Below are positions 2 through 28,633 of a stretch of DNA of 52,001 nucleotides, one piece after another. The stretch comes from Neptuniibacter pectenicola (GTDB lineage Bacteria > Pseudomonadota > Gammaproteobacteria > Pseudomonadales > Balneatricaceae): NCBI RefSeq assembly GCF_001597735.1, contig NZ_LUTS01000015.1, forward strand, positions 1-52,001, in the 5' to 3' direction. Position numbers and translations under genes: made by a program. Under the pieces are notes generated by a model. The model was not told where the DNA came from. It worked only from the letters and a program-made list of their open reading frames with translations, and ran no database searches. How positions within the stretch are numbered: the stretch's first letter is position 1; each line of letters begins with the position of its first letter.

Positions 2-79
2 GCGGAAGCGGTGGTCAATAACCCTGATGAGTTTACCTTCAGAAATGAGCGTAACTCTAAAGTCTTTGCGAAGGGTTAG
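2..79 (+). CDS. C-terminal end of an unidentified protein (partial)
   Basis: An open frame enters from the left edge and ends at TAG 77-79, giving 25 residues that end in NSKVFAKG. The stretch is hydrophilic and has no recognisable motif, so neither family nor function can be given. It could be a chance open frame, but its end fits the start of a roughly 300-base non-coding gap before the next operon. Confidence 0.35.
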   Translation, partial: AEAVVNNPDEFTFRNERNSKVFAKG

Positions 80-255: not shown

Positions 256-271
256 TGGCCTAGTTGTTGCT
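256..271 (+). promoter_or_regulatory. sigma-54 (-24/-12) promoter of the ABC/Ped operon
   Basis: The sequence TGGCCTAGTTGTTGCT has GG and GC exactly 10 bases apart and matches the family consensus TGGCAC-N5-TTGCW in most positions. It shares TGGCCT and TTGCT with the candidate promoter of the PQQ dehydrogenase at 9637-9652. Transcription would start near 282, about 95 bases before the first start codon. Confidence 0.55.
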
Positions 272-6039: not shown

Positions 6040-6842
6040 TGAATACATCGCATGCTTTCAATGCGTTCACTGCATTATCTGCCCGAGAGACTGGAAAGTT
6101 TCTTCGGCAGAAAGGACGTTTGTTTTCTGCGTTGGTGCGTCCGGCACTCTGGTTGCTGGTGTTTGCTGCTGGCTTCCAAAATGTATTTGGCGTGGCAGTG
6201 ATACCGCCTTACGAATCGTATATTGAATATAACGTCTATATAACGCCAGGTTTGCTTTGTATGGTGATGCTCTTTAACGGGATGCAGTCATCGTTAACGA
6301 TGGTTTATGATCGCGAAGTCGGTGTGATGCGTTTATTGCTCACTGCGCCGTTACCTCGCTGGTATATTCTATTTTGCAAACTGATGGCGGGTACATTGCT
6401 TTCGTTGCTACAGGTCTATGCGTTCCTTGTGATCTGCTGGTTGTTTGATGTGGATATTCCTTTAATGGGTGTATTAACAGCATTGCCTGCATTCATCTTG
6501 TCGGCATTAATGCTCGGCTCTTTGGGGTTACTGTTGTCCGTATCGGTTAAGCAGTTGGAGAATTTTGCAGGCATGATGAATTTTGTCATCTTCCCTATGT
6601 TCTTTATTTCGCCGGCGCTTTACCCTTTATGGAAGCTGGAAGAGTCCGGTGCAGAGATTGTGTACCAAGTGGCGCAATACAACCCTTTCACCTATGCCGT
6701 TGAGTTAGTGCGCTTTGCTTTATATGGGCAATTAAGCCTGACTGCATTAGCGGTGGTCTTAGGGAGCTTTATCTTCTTCTTCGTCCTTGCGGTGATTGGT
6801 TATGATCCGCAAAAAGGTGTGATTACACGTCGTAAAGGATAA
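6039..6842 (+). CDS. pedC: ABC-2 type permease, PedC family
   Basis: 267-residue inner-membrane protein with about six hydrophobic segments. The stretch from VMLFNGMQSSLTMVYDREVGVMRLLLTAPLPRWYILFCK to MNFVIFPMFFISPALYPLW is typical of ABC-2 permeases (the NodJ/DrrB class). It belongs to the PedC family linked to PQQ-dependent alcohol oxidation. With the PedA1-like ATPase it would form an ABC-2 transporter; this class is usually an exporter, so its link to lanthanide use is not mechanistically settled. It is the last gene of the operon and is followed by a strong terminator. Confidence 0.87.
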   Translation: MNTSHAFNAFTALSARETGKFLRQKGRLFSALVRPALWLLVFAAGFQNVFGVAVIPPYESYIEYNVYITPGLLCMVMLFNGMQSSLTMVYDREVGVMRLLLTAPLPRWYILFCKLMAGTLLSLLQVYAFLVICWLFDVDIPLMGVLTALPAFILSALMLGSLGLLLSVSVKQLENFAGMMNFVIFPMFFISPALYPLWKLEESGAEIVYQVAQYNPFTYAVELVRFALYGQLSLTALAVVLGSFIFFFVLAVIGYDPQKGVITRRKG

Positions 6843-6900: not shown

Positions 6901-6935
6901 TCTTCTCTTCTCTTCTCTTCTCTTCTCTTCTCTTC
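6901..6935 (-). repeat. pentanucleotide microsatellite, (TCTTC)7
   Basis: Seven uninterrupted TCTTC units (GAAGA-type on the - strand) run up to the stop codon of the HupE-like gene at 6935-6937. The repeat lies in the 3' untranslated segment, after the stop, so a change in copy number would not alter the protein as it stands. Confidence 0.95.
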
Positions 6936-8164
6936 TAGGCAGCTGCGTATTCTACGAGAGGAATCGAGCGGGTAACGATCCAGTAGCTTGATACGGCGAG
7001 CGTACCTAAAGAGACGTAATAGGGAAGCGGCTTGTTGAATATTCGCTTCTGACTGAGCAGAGAGGTGAGGGCAAAAACCACAACATAGATAAAGAGCTGC
7101 CCTGCCTCTATGCCTATATTGAAGCCGAGGAGGTTAATAAGGCTGGTTTGAGCCCCTTCCTGCGCCAGTTCACTAAATACAAATGAGAAGCCAAAGCCGT
7201 GGATGACGCCGATAATAAGTAGGGGGGTTGTCCCTAAGTGTTGTGCTTTATTAAAAAGCAGCGCAACGGCGGTTATACAGATGGTTAGGGCAATTAAAAG
7301 TTCAATACCCGGGGTAAAAAGAGGGGATGAGATCGGTGCGCTGTCGCCTACGAATAAACTAAATGAGTGCCCAATGGTAAAGGCTGTGGCGAGCGATAAA
7401 AGTCTTAAAAAGGTTGGAGCACTAAAAAACAATAGGACGACGAAAAGCACGTGGTCTAAGCCAATCAAAATATGACTAAACCCATCCTTAAACCCGGTCA
7501 TTAACTTATGATAAAGCGTAGGTTGATGCTGAGAGGAGTAGTCTAAAATCCCAACGGTGGTTTTAGCGGCCTGTTGCTCATCTATATGGAGCGTAATGAT
7601 GTTGGCTAATCGATTGATAGCGTTAAATTTATCCCCTAAATAGCTTGTGATCGTAATATCATTATCGACAATTGAGGTATTCGGCAAGCGCAATTGAATA
7701 TCAATGCCTGCATCAAAGAGCTTAGTTGCGTCAGGGCTGATCGCCAGTTCGCCGCTAAAGTTCTCTAGTGCGGTATCTAGGTTGCTAAAGGGCTTGCGAC
7801 TATCGGTATTAAAAATATGGATCTGTTCAACAGCGAAGGGCTGAGCTGCACCATCTTTTGTGAAGGCGTAGCCTTGGGTGATGTAGCTTTTTAATCGTTC
7901 AAGCTCCGTTCGCACTTCATTATGCTTAATAAAATAATCACGTCCCTCCGGTGCCGCTCTTTTTTCTGTGAACGGTAGATCTTGATTGCTATCTATACCT
8001 TGCCAGGTATTGTCGAGAAGGATTAGCGGTAGGGGCATGCGCATCAAGGCAACGGTATCTTGGTTGTCTTGATAAAGATGGATGATACGGGGCTCGAAAT
8101 GCGTGAAATGCGCTTGAGCGGTTGAACAGAATAGTAGTACAAATGCTGCGAATATTTTTTTCAT
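6935..8164 (-). CDS. exported HupE/UreJ-type membrane protein
   Basis: 409 residues from ATG 8164, preceded by GAAGGTGG; a GTG four codons upstream is less likely because the signal peptide MKKIFAAFVLLFCSTAQA starts at the ATG. A periplasmic domain of about 200 residues is followed by a HupE/UreJ_2 membrane domain with about six to seven segments. It carries the family motifs GFSHILIGLDHVLF, TIGHS, VIHGFGFSF and FNIGIEAGQ, whose His and Asp residues suggest metal transport. Family members are often linked to nickel or cobalt. Here the gene sits beside pqqA and a PQQ dehydrogenase rather than with urease or hydrogenase, so another metal or role is possible. Confidence 0.8.
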   Translation of the reverse strand: MKKIFAAFVLLFCSTAQAHFTHFEPRIIHLYQDNQDTVALMRMPLPLILLDNTWQGIDSNQDLPFTEKRAAPEGRDYFIKHNEVRTELERLKSYITQGYAFTKDGAAQPFAVEQIHIFNTDSRKPFSNLDTALENFSGELAISPDATKLFDAGIDIQLRLPNTSIVDNDITITSYLGDKFNAINRLANIITLHIDEQQAAKTTVGILDYSSQHQPTLYHKLMTGFKDGFSHILIGLDHVLFVVLLFFSAPTFLRLLSLATAFTIGHSFSLFVGDSAPISSPLFTPGIELLIALTICITAVALLFNKAQHLGTTPLLIIGVIHGFGFSFVFSELAQEGAQTSLINLLGFNIGIEAGQLFIYVVVFALTSLLSQKRIFNKPLPYYVSLGTLAVSSYWIVTRSIPLVEYAAA

Positions 8165-8180
8165 TATTTTGGCCACCTTC

Positions 8181-8247: not shown

Positions 8248-8835
8248 TTAGTAACGTGGATCCCACATTCTACGACCTGTTTCTTTTTCATAACCTTGAC
8301 CAAATGGGTAACTAACAATCTCAAGTTGCATGCCCCATGGTGCCATGAAGTAAACCCATGTTAGGTCTTTCATACCGGTATCGGTAAATGTATGAGGTTT
8401 ACCTAGGATTTTGATACCTTTTTTCTCTAAATACGCGACAGCTTCTGCCATATCATCGACATAAAATGCAACATGATGGCCGCCAATATCACTATTACGT
8501 GGTGGTGTTTGCTTTTGATCGGGTGCGGAATATTCAAAAATCTCTAAAGCGGGACCATTACCACAGCGCATGAGGTGGGCTGTTTTAATAACGGCTTTCT
8601 TGTCCACATTAAGGTTTTCTGTCATCCAATCGTTGTCAAACGGGCCAAATGGGCCGATTGAGAAAAACGATTCACATCCAATTACGTCTTTAAAAAATGC
8701 GGTGGCTTCTTTTACATTCGGGACGGTAATCCCTAAATGCTGGATGCCGCGCATACCCGGCATCTCTGCCTGCGCTGCTTGGGTAAAGAACGTTAATAGA
8801 AACAGGCACGTTGTAATTATTTTTGTTTTTTTCAT
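8248..8835 (-). CDS. exported VOC/glyoxalase-family protein
   Basis: 195 residues with a clear signal peptide (MKKTKIITTCLFLLTFFTQAAQA). The mature part has the paired beta-alpha-beta-beta-beta modules of the vicinal oxygen chelate fold: MRGIQHLGITVPNVKEATAFFKDVIG near residues 28-53, then GGHHVAFYVDDMAEAVAYLEKKG and WVYFMAPWGMQLEIVSYP. The candidate metal ligands are the His of QHLG, the His of GHHVAF and the Glu of QLEIV. A secreted VOC protein is less common than a cytoplasmic one. The reaction is unknown; its place beside pqqA and the dehydrogenase suggests a role in periplasmic oxidation or aldehyde handling, by inference. Confidence 0.8.
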   Translation of the reverse strand: MKKTKIITTCLFLLTFFTQAAQAEMPGMRGIQHLGITVPNVKEATAFFKDVIGCESFFSIGPFGPFDNDWMTENLNVDKKAVIKTAHLMRCGNGPALEIFEYSAPDQKQTPPRNSDIGGHHVAFYVDDMAEAVAYLEKKGIKILGKPHTFTDTGMKDLTWVYFMAPWGMQLEIVSYPFGQGYEKETGRRMWDPRY

Positions 8836-9084
8836 TTGAGTATTCCATGTGTAACGAATGTTTAAACAGGGAGGAATACACGTTTTATGCCAGTTAGCTT
8901 ATTATTTTTTTTTATTGTGTACAGTTTGTTCTAGGGGGGGGCGGCGTGATTTTTTCGTGTGGTTATTCAGATCTTATAACAATGGGGTGATGCACTGAGT
9001 CAATGTGTGCCAGTGATTATGAACCATACTGTTTCATTATTTGAAGTAGAGTGGTTTATTAGGTAGGTGCGTTGGTGCGTTGAA
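8836..9084. other. non-coding stretch upstream of the VOC gene
   Basis: AT-rich segment with an eight-G tract at 8934-8941 and a T-run near 8907. It should hold the promoter of the - strand VOC/HupE genes, but I could not identify a convincing -35/-10 or -24/-12 pair. No open frame with a ribosome site was seen. Confidence 0.5.
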
Positions 9085-9125
9085 TGGGTTAAAAAAGGGG
9101 GAGGATAACCCCTGCAGAGCAGGGG
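9085..9125 (-). terminator. rho-independent terminator downstream of pqqA
   Basis: CCCCTGC (9109-9115) pairs with GCAGGGG (9119-9125) around a three-base loop. On the - strand the stem is followed, after a short C-rich spacer, by six T (9091-9096). It lies about 30 bases past the pqqA stop and would make a very short pqqA transcript. Confidence 0.7.
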
Positions 9126-9153
9126 CGGGCACGTATGTATTAATCTATGTTAC

Positions 9154-9228
9154 TTAGCGGTTAGCAAAGTACATTGTTACTTCGAAGCCAATTCGAAGGT
9201 CTTTAAAGGCTGGTTTTGTCCAGTTCAT
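9154..9228 (-). CDS. pqqA: PQQ precursor peptide PqqA
   Basis: A 24-codon gene that begins [17 protein letters not shown] and ends TMYFANR. Glu16 and Tyr20, the two residues that are cross-linked and become PQQ, lie in the diagnostic E-x3-Y pattern, and the WTKPAF and [15 protein letters not shown] segments match the PqqA family almost throughout. The ribosome site AAGGAG lies a few bases before ATG 9228-9226. PqqE/PqqD modify the ribosomal peptide and PqqB, PqqC and proteases finish the cofactor; none of those genes is in this window, so pqqA stands alone here. The -24/-12 sequence at 9297-9311 and the terminator at 9085-9125 make it a single-gene unit. Confidence 0.95.
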
Positions 9229-9271
9229 AAGTATGCTCCTTGTATCAGTTTTTTCTAAATGATTATTTTTA

Positions 9272-9283
9272 TGACATGTGTCA
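9272..9283. promoter_or_regulatory. inverted repeat in the pqqA leader
   Basis: TGACA-TG-TGTCA lies between the predicted sigma-54 start point and the pqqA start codon. It could be an operator or the base of a leader structure; there is no direct support for either. Confidence 0.3.
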
Positions 9284-9296
9284 CTGCATAATAAAA

Positions 9297-9311
9297 GCAA
9301 GGACCGTGCCT
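9297..9311 (-). promoter_or_regulatory. sigma-54 (-24/-12) promoter of pqqA
   Basis: Read on the - strand the sequence is AGGCACGGTCCTTGCTTTT, matching TGGCACG-N4-TTGCW at all positions except the first base, with GG and GC exactly 10 apart. Transcription would begin near 9285, about 57 bases before the pqqA ATG. The nearest sigma-54 activator gene is at 13957. Confidence 0.7.
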
Positions 9312-9496
9312 ATGTTGATATATTAATTTCTTATCACGATCGGAATGATCGTTTCATTGAATAGCCTATAAAAAGAAAGCGGTATTGATGGGTATGCCAC
9401 GTAAGGTGAGTAAAAAGGTCTTACCTGCCTAGATTATTTAGGCGGATATTCAGCGCTTATTTATATAGATGTCTATTGTTAAATATATCACTACAG

Positions 9497-9519
9497 ACTG
9501 TTCCATTGCTTGATACAGT
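9497..9519. promoter_or_regulatory. candidate enhancer site between pqqA and the dehydrogenase
   Basis: ACTGT (9497-9501) and ACAGT (9515-9519) form an inverted repeat enclosing TTCC. It is about 120-140 bases upstream of the dehydrogenase -24/-12 sequence and about 190 bases upstream of the pqqA one, so it could serve both divergent genes. A similar TGTTCC...ACA arrangement lies at 173-194. Confidence 0.3.
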
Positions 9520-9636
9520 TTGTGACGCACAGTGATAATTATAGGGGTAATTGATATTTTTTTTAAAATATAGACGCTTTGTTTTTTCCTTTTATATCAA
9601 TTAGATAGTTCTGTATTTGTTCCGTTATTTTGTTTC

Positions 9637-9652
9637 TGGCCTGCATTTTGCT
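9637..9652 (+). promoter_or_regulatory. sigma-54 (-24/-12) promoter of the PQQ dehydrogenase
   Basis: TGGCCTGCATTTTGCT has GG and GC exactly 10 bases apart and shares TGGCCT with the site at 256-271. Transcription would start near 9663, about 67 bases before the chosen GTG start. Confidence 0.55.
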
Positions 9653-9729
9653 GTTTGTAGGGTACATAGAGGGTGGACTTATTCGCTTTAGTTTAAGTTT
9701 GCATGATATTGATAGATGGAGAACGAGAA

Positions 9730-11403
9730 GTGATTACAATAAAAAAATTAGTGCTATCGGCAAGTATTGCATCATGTATTGCATTATCTGGTGCAGCTAC
9801 ATCGGCTGCAGCAAGTCCTGCTGCAGAAAACCCTAATGATTGGCCTCAATACCACAGAACGTCTGATGCATGGCGCTTTAGCCCTCTGGATCAAATTAAT
9901 GTGGGTAACGTTAATAAGTTGAAAGTTGCATGGATTCATCAGCCTGGTGATATCGAGATGGGTCTACAAGCGACGCCTATCGTTATTGATGGCGTAGCTT
10001 ACTATATAGGTCCTAACAACAATGTGTTTGCGGTAAACGCAGCCACAGGTAAAACCATTTGGCACTACCAGCCAGACCTTGACTCAATCGTAGATGAAGT
10101 TTTCTATGTTGCGGCAAGCCGTGGTGTAACGGTAGGACATGGTAATGTTTATGTTGGTTCTTTGGATGGTCGTTTTATCGCGATTGACCAGAAAACAGGT
10201 AAAGAGAAGTGGTCTACTCAGATCACTGATTTAGAAAAATGCTACGGTTGCCTTTTTTCATCGCCTCCTCAGTTAGCGGGTGATGTTTTATTTGGTGGTA
10301 CAACCGGTGGTGATCAGCCAACGCAAGGTAAGATCTTCGCGGTTAATGCGATTACCGGTAAAAAAATGTGGACCTTCGATATCCTGCAAAAGGATGATCC
10401 TAAAAGCTGGCCTGGTGATTCAGGTGAAGTGGGCGGGAGTGGTGCATGGTTGCCAGGTACCTATGATGCCAAGAGCGATACGATCTTTATCGGTACAGCC
10501 AACGCAGCGCCTGATTTCTATGGCGCCGAGCGTGAAGGTGATAATAAGCACAGTGCCAGCCTTTTGGCGCTTGAGCCTAAAACAGGTAAGTTGAAGTGGG
10601 CTCGTCAAGAGATTCCTCATGATGTTTGGGATTATGATGCTTCCTATGAAGCACTTAGCCTGAAGCATAATGGTAAAGATGTGCTGGTTCACCTGAATAA
10701 AAGTGGTTATGTATTCGTACTCGAAAAGAGCACCGGTGAAGTGGAAAATGTTTGGCCGTTGGCTGAAAACATCACCTTTGCTAAAGGGATCAACCCTAAA
10801 ACTGGCGAGTTAATCGGCCGTAAGGCGATGCCTGTTGGTGAAGAAACCACGATCTGCCCGTACCTACTAGGTGCGCGTAGCTGGAACCACGGTGCCTACA
10901 ACCCTAATACAGGTTTGTGGTACACCAATGCGATGGAAGTTTGTAACGTCGTTGTGCCAGCCCCTCAGGAACATGAAAATATCGGTATTGCTGGCCTTTA
11001 TTTAGGTGTTAGTAAGCTGGTCGCTGTTCCACCTCCAGGCAAAAAAGCCTCAGCCCGTCTTGATGCGCGTGATCCTATCACGGGTAAATTGAAATGGTCT
11101 ATTGATTATCCATTACCTGGTCTAGGTAGCGTGTTAACTACTGGCGGTAATCTTGTATTCAATGGTGACCCTTACGGTGTTATCCATGCTTACAATGCCC
11201 AGAATGGTAAAGAGGTTTGGAACTTCAATGCAGGTTCCGGTATCCGTGGCGGTATCGTAAGTTACTCAGTTGATGGCAAACAGTACATTCTTGCGTCAAC
11301 AGGCTTTGGGTCCCATGCACCTGGCTTTATGGCCAGTGCATTCCCTGAAGTAGGTGGATTACCAGGTGGTGCAGCGCTAGTTGCATTTACGTTGGAAGAT
11401 TAA
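9730..11403 (+). CDS. exported PQQ-dependent alcohol dehydrogenase, lanthanide-type active site
   Basis: Quinoprotein of the methanol/ethanol dehydrogenase class, an eight-bladed propeller acting in the periplasm. I chose GTG 9730: GGAG lies eight bases upstream and the signal peptide starts there; an in-frame ATG at 9703 lacks both. Numbering from the GTG, Trp240 is the PQQ-stacking residue, Asn258 a metal ligand, Asp301 the catalytic base and Asp303 the extra Asp (WDYD) that marks lanthanide-dependent enzymes. By eye alignment the Glu ligand of MxaF is Asp195. The vicinal Cys-Cys pair of methanol dehydrogenases is absent; a C-x-x-C (171, 174) appears instead. At 558 residues it is slightly shorter than XoxF/ExaA. 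Substrate is unknown. A cytochrome gene follows. Confidence 0.92.
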   Translation: MITIKKLVLSASIASCIALSGAATSAAASPAAENPNDWPQYHRTSDAWRFSPLDQINVGNVNKLKVAWIHQPGDIEMGLQATPIVIDGVAYYIGPNNNVFAVNAATGKTIWHYQPDLDSIVDEVFYVAASRGVTVGHGNVYVGSLDGRFIAIDQKTGKEKWSTQITDLEKCYGCLFSSPPQLAGDVLFGGTTGGDQPTQGKIFAVNAITGKKMWTFDILQKDDPKSWPGDSGEVGGSGAWLPGTYDAKSDTIFIGTANAAPDFYGAEREGDNKHSASLLALEPKTGKLKWARQEIPHDVWDYDASYEALSLKHNGKDVLVHLNKSGYVFVLEKSTGEVENVWPLAENITFAKGINPKTGELIGRKAMPVGEETTICPYLLGARSWNHGAYNPNTGLWYTNAMEVCNVVVPAPQEHENIGIAGLYLGVSKLVAVPPPGKKASARLDARDPITGKLKWSIDYPLPGLGSVLTTGGNLVFNGDPYGVIHAYNAQNGKEVWNFNAGSGIRGGIVSYSVDGKQYILASTGFGSHAPGFMASAFPEVGGLPGGAALVAFTLED

Positions 11404-11485: not shown

Positions 11486-11914
11486 ATGAATAATAAAAAT
11501 ATTTTTACACGTGTTCGATTTGGTTTATTAGCGCTAGCACTGACAAGTAGTGTTGCTTACGCCGTGGCGCCACCCGTAGATGACCAGGGAAAAGCAGAGA
11601 AGAAAAAAGATAAAGAAACACCCGAACATATCGCCGCAATGAAAGCGAAAGTATTTAGTAAAGAAAGTGTCTCCGTTGCCATTGGTGAGAAACGCTTTAA
11701 CCAGACATGTGTTTACTGCCATGGATACGAAGGGTCAGGCGGTAAAGCGCGCAAGTTACAAGGTAGAGATTTTGATGCGGACTACCTTTTCAAAACCATT
11801 ACCAAAGGAAAGAAACGTGGTTCGCTTGTAATGCCACCATGGAAAAGAACATTTACACCTGAACAGCGTTGGGAGTTGGTGACTTATATATTGTCTTTAA
11901 GTGAAGAAAAATAA
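11486..11914 (+). CDS. periplasmic c-type cytochrome (XoxG-like)
   Basis: 142 residues with a signal peptide (hydrophobic to VAYAVA) and a short Lys-rich linker. The haem site CVYCH is at Cys75-Cys78-His79, and Met116 in VMPPWK is the likely distal ligand. This is a small class I cytochrome, by position the direct electron acceptor of the PQQ dehydrogenase, like XoxG/MxaG or ExaB. A weak TATCTA/TAGATA stem and a GGGAG ribosome site precede the ATG. Sequence similarity to XoxG itself is not strong enough to name it. Confidence 0.88.
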   Translation: MNNKNIFTRVRFGLLALALTSSVAYAVAPPVDDQGKAEKKKDKETPEHIAAMKAKVFSKESVSVAIGEKRFNQTCVYCHGYEGSGGKARKLQGRDFDADYLFKTITKGKKRGSLVMPPWKRTFTPEQRWELVTYILSLSEEK

Positions 11915-11930
11915 GTCTGGAGACGCCGAT

Positions 11931-12692
11931 ATGCTTACAACAATAAAAAAATTAACCCTATTGAGTTGTGTTTTGCTGAGCCCGTTGGCTACCGCAGGCA
12001 CCCTTGAACATATTATCGAAAAGGGTGAGCTGCATTTATGCGCTCACCCTGCTCAAATGCCTTTTTCATCAAGAGTAGAAAAGCCTAAAGGCTTCCAAAT
12101 TGATGTTGCTAAGGCGATTGCTGAAAAGCTGGATGTCTCGCTTAAAGTTTCGTGGATCATGCCGAGGCGTCAAGCAAAGAAAGTAGGTTGTGATTTGTAT
12201 TCAGGTGTTGCCAGATTGGGAGATGGTGACTCTAAATATATGTTGATTTCAGATCCGTACCTACGCTTAGAATTTAAATTGGTTACGTTAAAAAACAAGG
12301 CGCCTATTCATAACCTAGATGACCTTAAAACGATGGTTGTTGGGGTGTCATCCGGCAGTATTGCCTCCCATGCTTTGAGTTCAAAGAACGTGGAGATCGC
12401 GGTGCGGTTTGCGGATGAAGCGAGCCGTTTACAGGCACTTGCTGATGGTCTTATTGATGCGGCTATCGTGAGTAATGTGTCGAGTGGTTGGTTCCAGCGT
12501 CAGCACGGCCAGCAATTAACTGAGATTGATGCAGAGAAGGTGCTCAATGTCGGCCTTAATTATGACTACGCATTGGGTTTAAGAAAAGCAGACCAGAAAA
12601 CACGCGAAGCCTTTAATCAGGTATTAGTTGATCTTAAAAAAGAGGGCACCTTACCTACGCTTCTCAATGAATATGGTGTTTCACCTCTGTGA
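11931..12692 (+). CDS. XoxJ/MoxJ-like periplasmic binding protein
   Basis: 254 residues from ATG 11931, chosen because GGAG lies eight bases upstream and the signal peptide MLTTIKKLTLLSCVLLSPLATA starts there; the frame is open back to GTG 11901 inside the cytochrome gene. The fold is that of family 3 solute-binding proteins (LEHIIEKGELHLCAHPAQMPFSS, then GFQIDVAKAIAEKL), as in MxaJ and XoxJ. These act in maturation or activation of PQQ dehydrogenases rather than in amino acid uptake. The gene order dehydrogenase-cytochrome-binding protein is the xoxFGJ order. No ABC permease adjoins it, which supports that reading. Confidence 0.82.
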   Translation: MLTTIKKLTLLSCVLLSPLATAGTLEHIIEKGELHLCAHPAQMPFSSRVEKPKGFQIDVAKAIAEKLDVSLKVSWIMPRRQAKKVGCDLYSGVARLGDGDSKYMLISDPYLRLEFKLVTLKNKAPIHNLDDLKTMVVGVSSGSIASHALSSKNVEIAVRFADEASRLQALADGLIDAAIVSNVSSGWFQRQHGQQLTEIDAEKVLNVGLNYDYALGLRKADQKTREAFNQVLVDLKKEGTLPTLLNEYGVSPL

Positions 12693-13956: not shown

Positions 13957-15951
13957 ATGTCTTCTAAAAGTGCAGATTATTCTAATGAAAAGAGTTTTCT
14001 CGCCGGAGAAACTCCAGAGAAAGACGATGCTTTAACTGATAGATACATTGAGAACTCGTGGGAAAGGTGTCGCGATAGATACAAAATCTCTCAGCACAGT
14101 GATGTGAAGTTAGTATCACTGACTGACACTGAGGTTAAAGAGCATCGCGAGCCTTTAGAGAAACTACTGAGTGATTCGGTAGAAGTATTCGATAAAATAA
14201 GAACCTTATCTAAAAACAGTGGTTATACCGTTCTTATCACTAATGAAAAGGGTGTAGCGGTTAAGTCGTTTGCCGAGTCCAGTGTTGGGCATGATTTAGT
14301 TGCAAAAGGACTGAGACAGGGCACCTTATGGTCAGAAAGCCTTGTTGGTACTAATGGATTAGGCACCTGCTTAACGGAGTGTAGCCCGGTTACGGTGTAT
14401 GCTGAAGAGCATTACGGCAGTAACCTACAAAACTTCAGCTGTTCTGCTGCCCCGCTTATCTCCCCTGATGGTACGCCGTTTGGCGCTATTGACGCGTCCA
14501 CATTTGCCAATGGCAACCGGCTTGGTCAGGCGTTAGCATTAAATATGGTCTGTGAGACCGCTGATGAAATTGAAGCGTTGGTATTTAAAGATGCTTATCA
14601 TAATCAGAGGGTTATTAGTTTTTCAGTTTCCCCAGTGGTCTCCATTACCAAAGCGCTGGTTGCGGTTAATGATAGCGGTACCATTGTGGCTGCGACGACC
14701 CCGATTCTTTTAACACTCGGGTGCCGTGACCGTTATGAGATCGTCGGCAAAAAGTTTCAAGATGTCTTTAATTTAAGCTTTGAGCAACTGGAAGCCGCAG
14801 GGTCCGGTAGTGTTGAGCATTATATGCAAGTCATGGGGAAACCTTATAAATTCCATGCGAACTTTTTACAAAATAATGCATATCAAATTCAGAGCCCGCA
14901 ATCGCGAATTGTGACCGCTAAACCGCTAGAAATTGATACTAGTATTCCTGTTAATACCCCTCTGGTTCTAGCGGCAGGAAAAGAACCAACACTGCTCAAG
15001 CAGGCGACCCGCTGCCAGCGGATTGTCAACAAAGGGATCAGTATCCTTTTGCAAGGTGAAACGGGCACAGGTAAAGAGGTGTGGGCGAGAGCACTGCATG
15101 AGAGTAGTGATCGTGCTGATAAACCTTTTATTACGCTTAACTGTGCGGCGATTCCCGAGTCTTTAATCGAAAGTGAACTGTTTGGTTACGGTGCGGGCAC
15201 ATTCACGGGGGGGCTTAAAGCCGGCAAGATGGGTAAGATCCAAGCCAGTGATGGTGGTACCTTATTTCTAGATGAAATTGGTGACATGCCACTTGAGCTA
15301 CAGGCGAGTTTACTGCGTGTGCTTGCTGAAAGTGAAATTATCCCCCTTGGCGAACATGAGGCGGTCGGTGTTAGCTTAAATGTTATCTGTGCGACCCATC
15401 GAGATTTGAAGGAATATGTTGCGCGCGGTGAGTTTAGGGAAGATCTATATTACCGTATCAGTGGCTTCCAAGTAACACTGCCTAGCTTGCGCCAGCGCAG
15501 TGATCAGCCGGTCATTATTGAAAAAGTGTTACATATGCTCTGCCTTGATGATGGTGATGTGGGTCACGTTGAAATCCACCCTAAGGCGATGGAACTCCTA
15601 TGTCAGTATCGTTGGCCAGGAAATATACGACAGCTTAAAAATGTTCTTCAATACGCATTGTGTATGCGGGAGGGCGAAATGATCTGCATCGAAGACCTGC
15701 CTGATGAGGTCTTCTCGAGTGATCAGCTGGTGCGGAAAGAACAGGACATTGCTCCGCCTCCTTTGCGAATGCTTTCTATTTCGAGTGACTCCGGCAGTCT
15801 CTCAGAGAAAGAAGAGTTAGAGAATATATTGGAGCAGCATCGCTGGGTAGTGACCCGTGCGGCAAAAGCGATGGGGGTGAGTCGATCAACCTTGCATCGT
15901 AAAATTAAAAAGTACGGACTTTTGAGTGAAGATCAGCTTTTAGATCATTAA
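13957..15951 (+). CDS. AcoR-type sigma-54-dependent transcriptional activator
   Basis: 664 residues in the order: N-terminal GAF-containing sensor region (about 60-220), a PAS-like linker, AAA+ domain (about 335-560) and C-terminal Fis-type helix-turn-helix (VVTRAAKAMGVSRSTLHRKIKKYGL). Walker A is GETGTGKE at 367-374 and Walker B is GGTLFLDEIGD. The sigma-54 contact loop, usually GAFTGA, reads GTFTGG at 414-419, a variant known in this subfamily. Members respond to acetoin, alcohols or related small molecules through the GAF domain. Sigma-54 promoters before pqqA, the dehydrogenase and the ABC operon make it the obvious activator, by inference. A terminator follows. Confidence 0.9.
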   Translation: MSSKSADYSNEKSFLAGETPEKDDALTDRYIENSWERCRDRYKISQHSDVKLVSLTDTEVKEHREPLEKLLSDSVEVFDKIRTLSKNSGYTVLITNEKGVAVKSFAESSVGHDLVAKGLRQGTLWSESLVGTNGLGTCLTECSPVTVYAEEHYGSNLQNFSCSAAPLISPDGTPFGAIDASTFANGNRLGQALALNMVCETADEIEALVFKDAYHNQRVISFSVSPVVSITKALVAVNDSGTIVAATTPILLTLGCRDRYEIVGKKFQDVFNLSFEQLEAAGSGSVEHYMQVMGKPYKFHANFLQNNAYQIQSPQSRIVTAKPLEIDTSIPVNTPLVLAAGKEPTLLKQATRCQRIVNKGISILLQGETGTGKEVWARALHESSDRADKPFITLNCAAIPESLIESELFGYGAGTFTGGLKAGKMGKIQASDGGTLFLDEIGDMPLELQASLLRVLAESEIIPLGEHEAVGVSLNVICATHRDLKEYVARGEFREDLYYRISGFQVTLPSLRQRSDQPVIIEKVLHMLCLDDGDVGHVEIHPKAMELLCQYRWPGNIRQLKNVLQYALCMREGEMICIEDLPDEVFSSDQLVRKEQDIAPPPLRMLSISSDSGSLSEKEELENILEQHRWVVTRAAKAMGVSRSTLHRKIKKYGLLSEDQLLDH

Positions 15952-28433: not shown

Positions 28434-28449
28434 TGGCACGAACACTGCA
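28434..28449 (+). promoter_or_regulatory. sigma-54 (-24/-12) promoter of the permease-kinase fusion
   Basis: TGGCACGAACACTGCA matches TGGCACG-N4-TTGCA at all but one position, with GG and GC exactly 10 apart. Transcription would start near 28460, leaving a leader of about 170 bases. Confidence 0.6.
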
Positions 28450-28607: not shown

Positions 28608-28633
28608 TGGGCATGATTTGGTGATAGGTGGAT

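Follow-up and report, generated by a model that had tools for sequence, protein, structure and literature searches.

Results

A third pqqA gene and its genome setting

The stretch of DNA analysed here (52,001 nucleotides; hereafter the window) is contig C57 of the 3.63-Mb draft genome of Neptuniibacter pectenicola. On its minus strand, at positions 9154–9228 including the stop codon, lies an orphan pqqA gene (pqqA3) for a peptide of 24 amino acids, preceded by the hexamer AAGGAG, its probable ribosome-binding site (9236–9241, minus strand). By its sequence, the product is a PqqA. In profile searches it scored 44.2 bits with PF08042 (cut-off 21.1) and 46.3 bits with TIGR02107 (cut-off 20), and no match to PF08042 was found in any of 14 control genomes. 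Glu16 and Tyr20 form the E-x3-Y pattern, and this core was kept in all eight loci carrying a pqqA of the same type. An earlier note on this DNA, made from its letters, had described a 24-codon minus-strand gene with these two residues and proposed a profile search; the gene proved to be real, its product matching above the curated cut-offs of both families.

The eight distinct loci with a pqqA of the window type are the window itself, L021–L026 and L155, and come from Neptuniibacter, Amphritea and one further relative. L021 belongs to Neptuniibacter sp. 1_MG-2023, whose DNA is identical there to that of the genus-mate G003, and L155 belongs to genome G004, of the same genus as the window. The pairs L021/L150, L022/L154, L024/L184 and L026/L170 represent the same DNA and were each counted once.

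A search of the whole genome with PF08042 found three pqqA genes, namely pqqA3 and copies at C13:95478 and C113:27137. Both of the latter are followed by the start of pqqB right before the contig ends. The orphan gene had been said to stand alone without pqqBCDE, which was not confirmed: the window opens with the 3′ end of a pqqE gene (positions 2–79, plus strand; last 25 codons and stop, AEAVVNNPDEFTFRNERNSKVFAKG), recognized by comparison with the pqqE ends of L132 and L140 and lying about 9 kb from pqqA3. Bases 1–77 of the window occur again at C182:186842–186918, so that the genome has two pqqE ends. The search for the pathway genes that the earlier note had suggested thus returned two pqqB starts and two pqqE ends, and no full pqqE was found in the assembly of this genome. 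We rejected the explanation that pqqE is truly missing from the genome, as its tail is present at the start of C57 and again on C182. The pqq operon is probably duplicated, judging from these pieces, and a full pqqE is absent from the assembly because the middle of the duplicated operon, between the pqqB starts on C13 and C113 and the pqqE tails on C57 and C182, was probably lost from it. In the genus search, pqqE was above the cut-off in 8 of 11 genomes, with two copies each in G003 and G007. The two copies have equal scores within each of these genomes, and the stretch of 2130 bases, pqqE included, that is shared in G003 shows 95.8% identity. Another relative, G001, has five pqqA genes (C120, C109, C35, C113), two of which share one short contig. 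The gene for sigma-54, rpoN, is present in the window's genome (497 bits).

The divergent quinoprotein dehydrogenase and the neighbouring genes

Divergently from pqqA3, at positions 9703–11403 on the plus strand, lies a gene for a quinoprotein alcohol-dehydrogenase-like protein of 566 amino acids with a WDYD motif. Its score with the broader family PF01011 was 263.9 bits, above the cut-off, while with TIGR03075 it reached 403.8 bits, under the cut-off of 480.05. When alignments of the protein to solved relatives were read by eye, the Asp, Asn and Lys residues, which we take to be catalytic, were found to be kept, a Glu was replaced by Asp and the vicinal Cys pair was absent; WDYD, with its D-x-D, is presumably a motif of the lanthanide type. 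The sequence suggests that the enzyme likely uses PQQ, but this is less than certain because the score lies below the TIGR03075 cut-off and the vicinal Cys pair is missing. Five other dehydrogenases of the genome exceed this cut-off, and they could draw on the same PQQ too.

The dehydrogenase gene is followed on the same strand by genes for a cytochrome c (11486–11914; PF13442), which also comes after the dehydrogenase in L021–L028, and for a MoxJ-like periplasmic binding protein (11901–12692; PF00497, 46.1 bits; TIGR03871, 74.7 bits, under the cut-off of 212.15). Further downstream, after lipA, we found a gene for a sigma-54-dependent activator with a Fis-type helix-turn-helix (13957–15951, plus strand; PF00158 and PF02954), which is the module's candidate activator. 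In L021–L026, too, the dehydrogenase gene is followed by those for the cytochrome c, the binding protein and the activator, in this order, with lipA in between in L021 and L022 only. On the other side, downstream of pqqA3, the minus strand encodes a VOC-family protein (8248–8835) and a HupE/UreJ-like membrane protein (6935–8176; PF13795). The VOC gene has a weak −24/−12-like site at 8877–8892 (minus strand, score 8.4). Such a site was seen 34–43 nt before its start in all 12 rows of loci (8 distinct), with scores from 8.4 to 14.2, and the best matches to the palindrome described below had 5 to 9 mismatches in that region.

The predicted −24/−12 promoters

At positions 9311–9296 of the minus strand, upstream of pqqA3, lies the sequence AGGCACGGTCCTTGCT, which differs from TGGCACGNNNNTTGCW at one position (the first T is A) and fits the GG-N10-GC arrangement within TGGCAYR-N4-TTGCW. 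A single match of this kind is weak evidence: in the window, 8 matches with at most two mismatches were found, while 9.4 are expected. We therefore compared the loci, using scoring weights for −24/−12 sites that we take to be appropriate. It was found that GG-N10-GC is kept in all eight. In each of the seven loci with the divergent dehydrogenase, the window included, the top site on the pqqA strand was the homologous one, 56–72 nt before the ATG, while the second-best sites scored at most 7.9. L155 has the site CGGCATAATCTTTGCT at a distance of 66 nt from the pqqA start. Every pqqA of the window type (8/8) is preceded by a site scoring at least 11.7, and among 5000 random 200-nt pieces 76 (1.5%) reached 11.6.

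Similarly, the dehydrogenase strand carries the site TGGCCTGCATTTTGCT (9637–9652, plus strand), the best on its strand, and the homologous site was the best in seven of seven loci, 44–64 nt before the start used. When each locus was compared with 300 dinucleotide shuffles, the values lay between 0.003 and 0.017 for both strands, and the intergenic DNA around both sites is otherwise poorly conserved. These counts are not independent since the eight loci are related, mostly belonging to two genera, the palindrome consensus was read from the same loci and the −24/−12 weights are our own assumption. The near-consensus −24/−12 sequence that the earlier note had placed before pqqA was upheld by its conservation in the eight loci, and it is this conservation across loci, not the single match, that led us to reject a chance promoter. 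The comparison thus lends good support to a separate pqqA with a promoter of the sigma-54 type.

In a wider set of loci, 16 of 30 had a site scoring at least 11.6 in the roughly 800 nt that precede the dehydrogenase match; the background rate of this score, 1.5%, refers to shorter pieces of 200 nt. The 30 loci scanned come from a set of 33, of which three were too short, and L053–L060 and L062–L099 were left out. Sigma-54 control of such dehydrogenases may be common beyond these genera.

A conserved palindrome between the two promoters

Between the divergent promoters, at positions 9493–9523, we noticed a palindrome, ACAGACTGTTCCA-N5-TGATACAGTTTGT. The half-site, ACAGACTGTGTCA, was read from the alignment, and the palindrome of the window differs from the consensus at 4 of 26 positions. 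It is present in all eight loci, with 1–5 mismatches of 26 and a spacer of 5 nt in seven of them and 3 nt in L026. Its centre lies 92.5–222.5 nt from the predicted pqqA start, the distance varying from locus to locus. The derived pattern, at no more than three mismatches, was found at one place in the genome, 9493–9523, where it matches by construction, and the reversed-pattern controls gave none. In 300 random pieces of 831 nt the best match usually had 11–12 mismatches; two pieces had at most 7, one of them only 2, which may be a resampled copy of the real site.

In addition, the half-site was found in the relatives, at six mismatches or fewer, at four more places outside the pqqA–dehydrogenase region, none of which had been used in building it. 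The palindrome at L154:9238 lies between two opposed −24/−12-like sites (15.4 and 15.4), one of which faces a porin gene; for the site at 9461 (plus strand), no open frame of more than 31 amino acids was present within the 350 nt examined. At L026:4169 it again lies between opposed sites (15.4 and 12.2), and at L028:1502 a one-sided site of 19.2, 100 nt away, faces a frame of 328 amino acids. The fourth, at L154:11795, precedes a VOC gene and has a weak site only (9.2). That three of the four places adjoin −24/−12-like sites supports the reading of the palindrome as an activator site. On this comparison, the palindrome at 9493–9523 is a probable shared activator site of both promoters, and its occurrence in L154 (9028–9476), L026 (4015–4423) and L028 (1502–1647) suggests a larger regulon in the relatives. 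The divergent quinoprotein dehydrogenase, its −24/−12 site and the palindrome between the promoters were absent from the earlier note, and the setting of pqqA3 is different from the one described there.

Hairpins at the ends of the predicted transcript

Counting 12 nt past the C of the −12 element, transcription of pqqA3 is predicted to start at position 9285 (minus strand). The predicted mRNA opens with a hairpin, GTGAC-ACAT-GTCAT (9271–9284, minus strand), and a hairpin folds there in all eight loci, at +1 in seven of them and at +2 in the window. The letters differ in L026, which has another stem, and in L155 (GTGG/CCAC), and the pairing is kept; loops of 3 to 7 bases occur. Since the base changes keep the pairing and the loop length varies, an RNA hairpin fits better than a protein site. 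In 300 plain shuffles per 26-nt leader, between 0 and 7.3% folded equally well, so single loci say little and the weight rests on the recurrence. A hairpin in this position would be expected to hinder degradation starting at the 5′ end, and it would be by this route that it stabilizes the pqqA mRNA.

Past the stop codon of pqqA3, a GC hairpin is present at 9108–9126 (minus strand). Its stem is kept in seven of the eight loci, with a T-A pair swapped for C-G in L023–L025, while L026 has another hairpin. The earlier note had taken this hairpin for a terminator. The hairpin itself is there and is conserved, but no U-run was found right after it at any of the eight loci, the sequence at this point in the window being UUAUCC. 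A terminator is thus only partly supported, and we would not call the hairpin an intrinsic terminator, understood as a GC hairpin with an immediate U-run. The sole hit of a terminator scan was on another stem of 5 pairs (9113–9096; 1 found, 0.5 expected). The folding z-score of the window stretch with the 3′ hairpin was −1.23, and 24 of 200 shuffles folded equally well. An Rfam scan of the region gave a single match (E 0.6; 16.3 bits, the gathering score being 46.9), which we took as chance.

Comparison with other pqqA genes and dehydrogenase loci

L155 has at this locus neither the dehydrogenase nor the cytochrome c nor the binding protein, and genome G004 gave no dehydrogenase match at an E-value of 1e-180 or better. 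Its pqqA, the −24/−12 site and the palindrome (5 mismatches) are kept, and the pqqA adjoins lipA and the activator gene. As the promoter and the palindrome have been kept without the dehydrogenase, pqqA is not a mere passenger of the dehydrogenase promoter region.

We also looked at the association from the side of the enzyme. Among 144 genomes searched, a close homologue of the dehydrogenase was found in eight, our own included, and three of these eight, of genus g3, have a single pqqA elsewhere. A regular-expression search of 79 named dehydrogenase loci found a pqqA of the window type in L021–L026 only. It follows from genus g3 and from this survey that the pairing is not obligatory and that the dehydrogenase can do without the arrangement.

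Scoring of 58 distinct upstream regions of pqqA, 200 nt each, gave 13 with a site of at least 11.6: all eight of the window type and five of a second type, while none of the 45 others reached this value. The survey covered L067, L083 and L091 as well; of these three only L091 gave a pqqA, which is counted among the 58. In the second type (L158:7134, L152:593, L168:6235, L163:364 and L172:370) the site resembles TGGCAYR-N4-TAGCW and lies 114–137 nt before the ATG. A pqqB gene follows within 630 nt in three of the five; of the other two, L163 lies at a contig end and L172 has a different gene next. In four of the five loci, a gene for a sigma-54 activator 35–36% identical to the 13957 protein is nearby. 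The pqqA on C113 is itself of the second type (pqqA2) and lies near a chemotaxis receptor gene and the gene of a second sigma-54 activator, while the copy on C13 has a −24/−12 score of 2.4. When the regions were sorted by context, sites of at least 11.6 were found in 9 of 21 regions without pqqB within 630 nt, in 3 of 35 with pqqB, and in one of two at contig ends. Since 12 of the 21 stand-alone-looking pqqA genes have no such site, this wiring is a property of these types and not of stand-alone pqqA genes in general. On L091, a planctomycete contig, a pqqA-like frame at 6384 (plus strand) is followed by a pqqB-like start; a dehydrogenase homologue is present and the −24/−12 score is 0.8.

Discussion

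The reason for which some bacteria maintain additional pqqA genes at a distance from the other pathway genes is, to our knowledge, not settled. We propose that pqqA3, a third and stand-alone copy, would be an inducible source of precursor for PQQ. Upon a signal, a sigma-54 activator would bind the palindrome at 9493–9523, and RNA polymerase with RpoN would fire the two divergent −24/−12 promoters simultaneously, in one direction producing the dehydrogenase with the cytochrome c and the binding protein, and in the other the short pqqA mRNA with its 5′ hairpin. The PqqA3 peptide would then be converted into PQQ by PqqBCDE encoded at other places in the genome, and the precursor and the apoenzyme would rise together. 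That transcription of the orphan gene by sigma-54 takes place and that the peptide becomes PQQ is what we infer from the arrangement. We consider a sigma-54-controlled precursor supply matched to the enzyme to be probable, with a good deal of confidence for a reading drawn from sequence comparison. The earlier note had gone further, proposing that a separate, sigma-54-driven pqqA lets the cell raise the precursor only when an alcohol signal is present. The sigma-54-type promoter stands, but with two other pqqA genes in the genome the orphan copy would boost the precursor and not be its sole supply, and the words "only when" do not hold. That the signal might be an alcohol is a guess from the neighbouring dehydrogenase.

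The product of the 13957 gene is most likely the activator of the module, although this assignment is less certain than the enzyme-matched supply itself. The module could be driven by sigma-54 with another activator, such as the paralogue that lies near pqqA2 on C113 and is 35% identical, and the genome does have at least one such paralogue. We regard this as unlikely, as in L021–L026 the dehydrogenase has the 13957 gene downstream of it and, in L155, this gene stays beside pqqA after lipA where the dehydrogenase is absent.

It is also conceivable that the promoter is real but that the main role of the peptide is not extra PQQ, the product binding metal, having some other function or being a redundant paralogue. 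The D-x-D motif of the neighbouring dehydrogenase, which we take to be of the lanthanide type, would suit such a role. So would the fourfold change that two orphan genes of M. extorquens AM1, pqqA2 and pqqA3, show with the neodymium source, and for these genes a role in lanthanide uptake has been speculated (PMC11317620). This explanation seems quite improbable to us, since all eight loci have kept the E-x3-Y core with its flanks, as expected of a PqqE substrate, and the window itself contains a pqqE end. Transcription of pqqA3 from an ordinary sigma-70 promoter, with the −24/−12 match arising by chance, is very improbable: single near-consensus matches are not rare and the intergenic DNA carries two overlapping sigma-70-like pairs (pqqA strand, 9567 or 9566 to 9538; 4 found in the whole region, 3.2 expected), but all eight loci have the −24/−12 site about equally far from pqqA, and the start that this site predicts is where the hairpin begins.

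If the matched supply of precursor and enzyme is true, cells would adjust PQQ by raising the amount of precursor peptide along with that of the enzyme requiring the cofactor. One palindrome and one activator gene would offer a simple handle on this idea, as well as a pattern for finding similar precursor genes. More speculatively, and with somewhat less than even weight in our judgement, the output of PQQ might be set by precursor supply in general: the duplicated pqqBCDE would process whatever peptide is made, and the separate pqqA genes would act as demand-driven valves. Sigma-54, with a different activator in each case, would control at least two of these genes, pqqA3 and the pqqA2 type; pqqA3 would share its activator site with the apoenzyme, and the 5′ hairpin would protect its mRNA.

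A 2017 study by Singh et al. reportedly describes, by its title, a quinoprotein alcohol dehydrogenase of Azospirillum brasilense that is regulated by sigma-54 and a LuxR-type regulator. Azospirillum brasilense would thus likewise have a quinoprotein dehydrogenase under sigma-54, with a LuxR-type regulator, going by that title, where the candidate here is of the Fis type. A pqqA:lacZ fusion in Azospirillum brasilense depended on RpoE6 (PMC12826043).

Orphan pqqA genes themselves are already known. In the portions of the reports at hand, Methylovorus MP688 has five copies and the availability of PqqA is called rate-determining (PMC11317620, citing Ge et al.), Methylophilaceae have 3 to 12 copies (PMC4109929), pqqA3–5 are separate in strain FJNU-6 (PMC9851590) and strain RH AL1 has three copies (PMC10848612). 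The methylotrophs (MP688, Methylophilaceae, M. extorquens AM1 and FJNU-6) likewise keep extra pqqA genes away from pqqBCDE, but neither a sigma-54 promoter nor a divergent dehydrogenase with a shared activator site is named in those portions. A symbiosis region of bug-associated Burkholderiaceae contains a sigma-54-dependent Fis family regulator, an amino acid ABC transporter binding protein, a PqqE gene and a piece of pqqA of about 100 bp (PMC9088363, from the part available). It resembles the window in these four elements; its authors call the pqqA piece a fragment, and a promoter or shared activator site is not named in that part of the text. In the open-licence literature, among the matches listed and as far as their accessible text goes (PMC5623727 included), we came across no account of an orphan pqqA driven by sigma-54, and the sigma-54 wiring with a shared activator site looks new.

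The ped cluster of Pseudomonas combines quinoprotein dehydrogenases with transport genes and PQQ biosynthesis, according to the accessible part of a report in which the table has one pqqA for P. putida, within the pqq operon, and RpoN occurs not once and sigma54 once, for CbrB (PMC12997753). The window bears a likeness to this cluster, as it also holds PedC-like and PQQ-ABC genes. A −24/−12-like site at 256–271 (plus strand, score 14.7), common to the window and L150, lies 44 nt upstream of the ABC transporter genes. We left this site out of the module; the nearest match to the palindrome has 11 mismatches. The top-scoring −24/−12-like site of the window (28434–28449, plus strand, 16.7) lies upstream of a gene for a hybrid histidine kinase of 1160 amino acids that starts at 28628.
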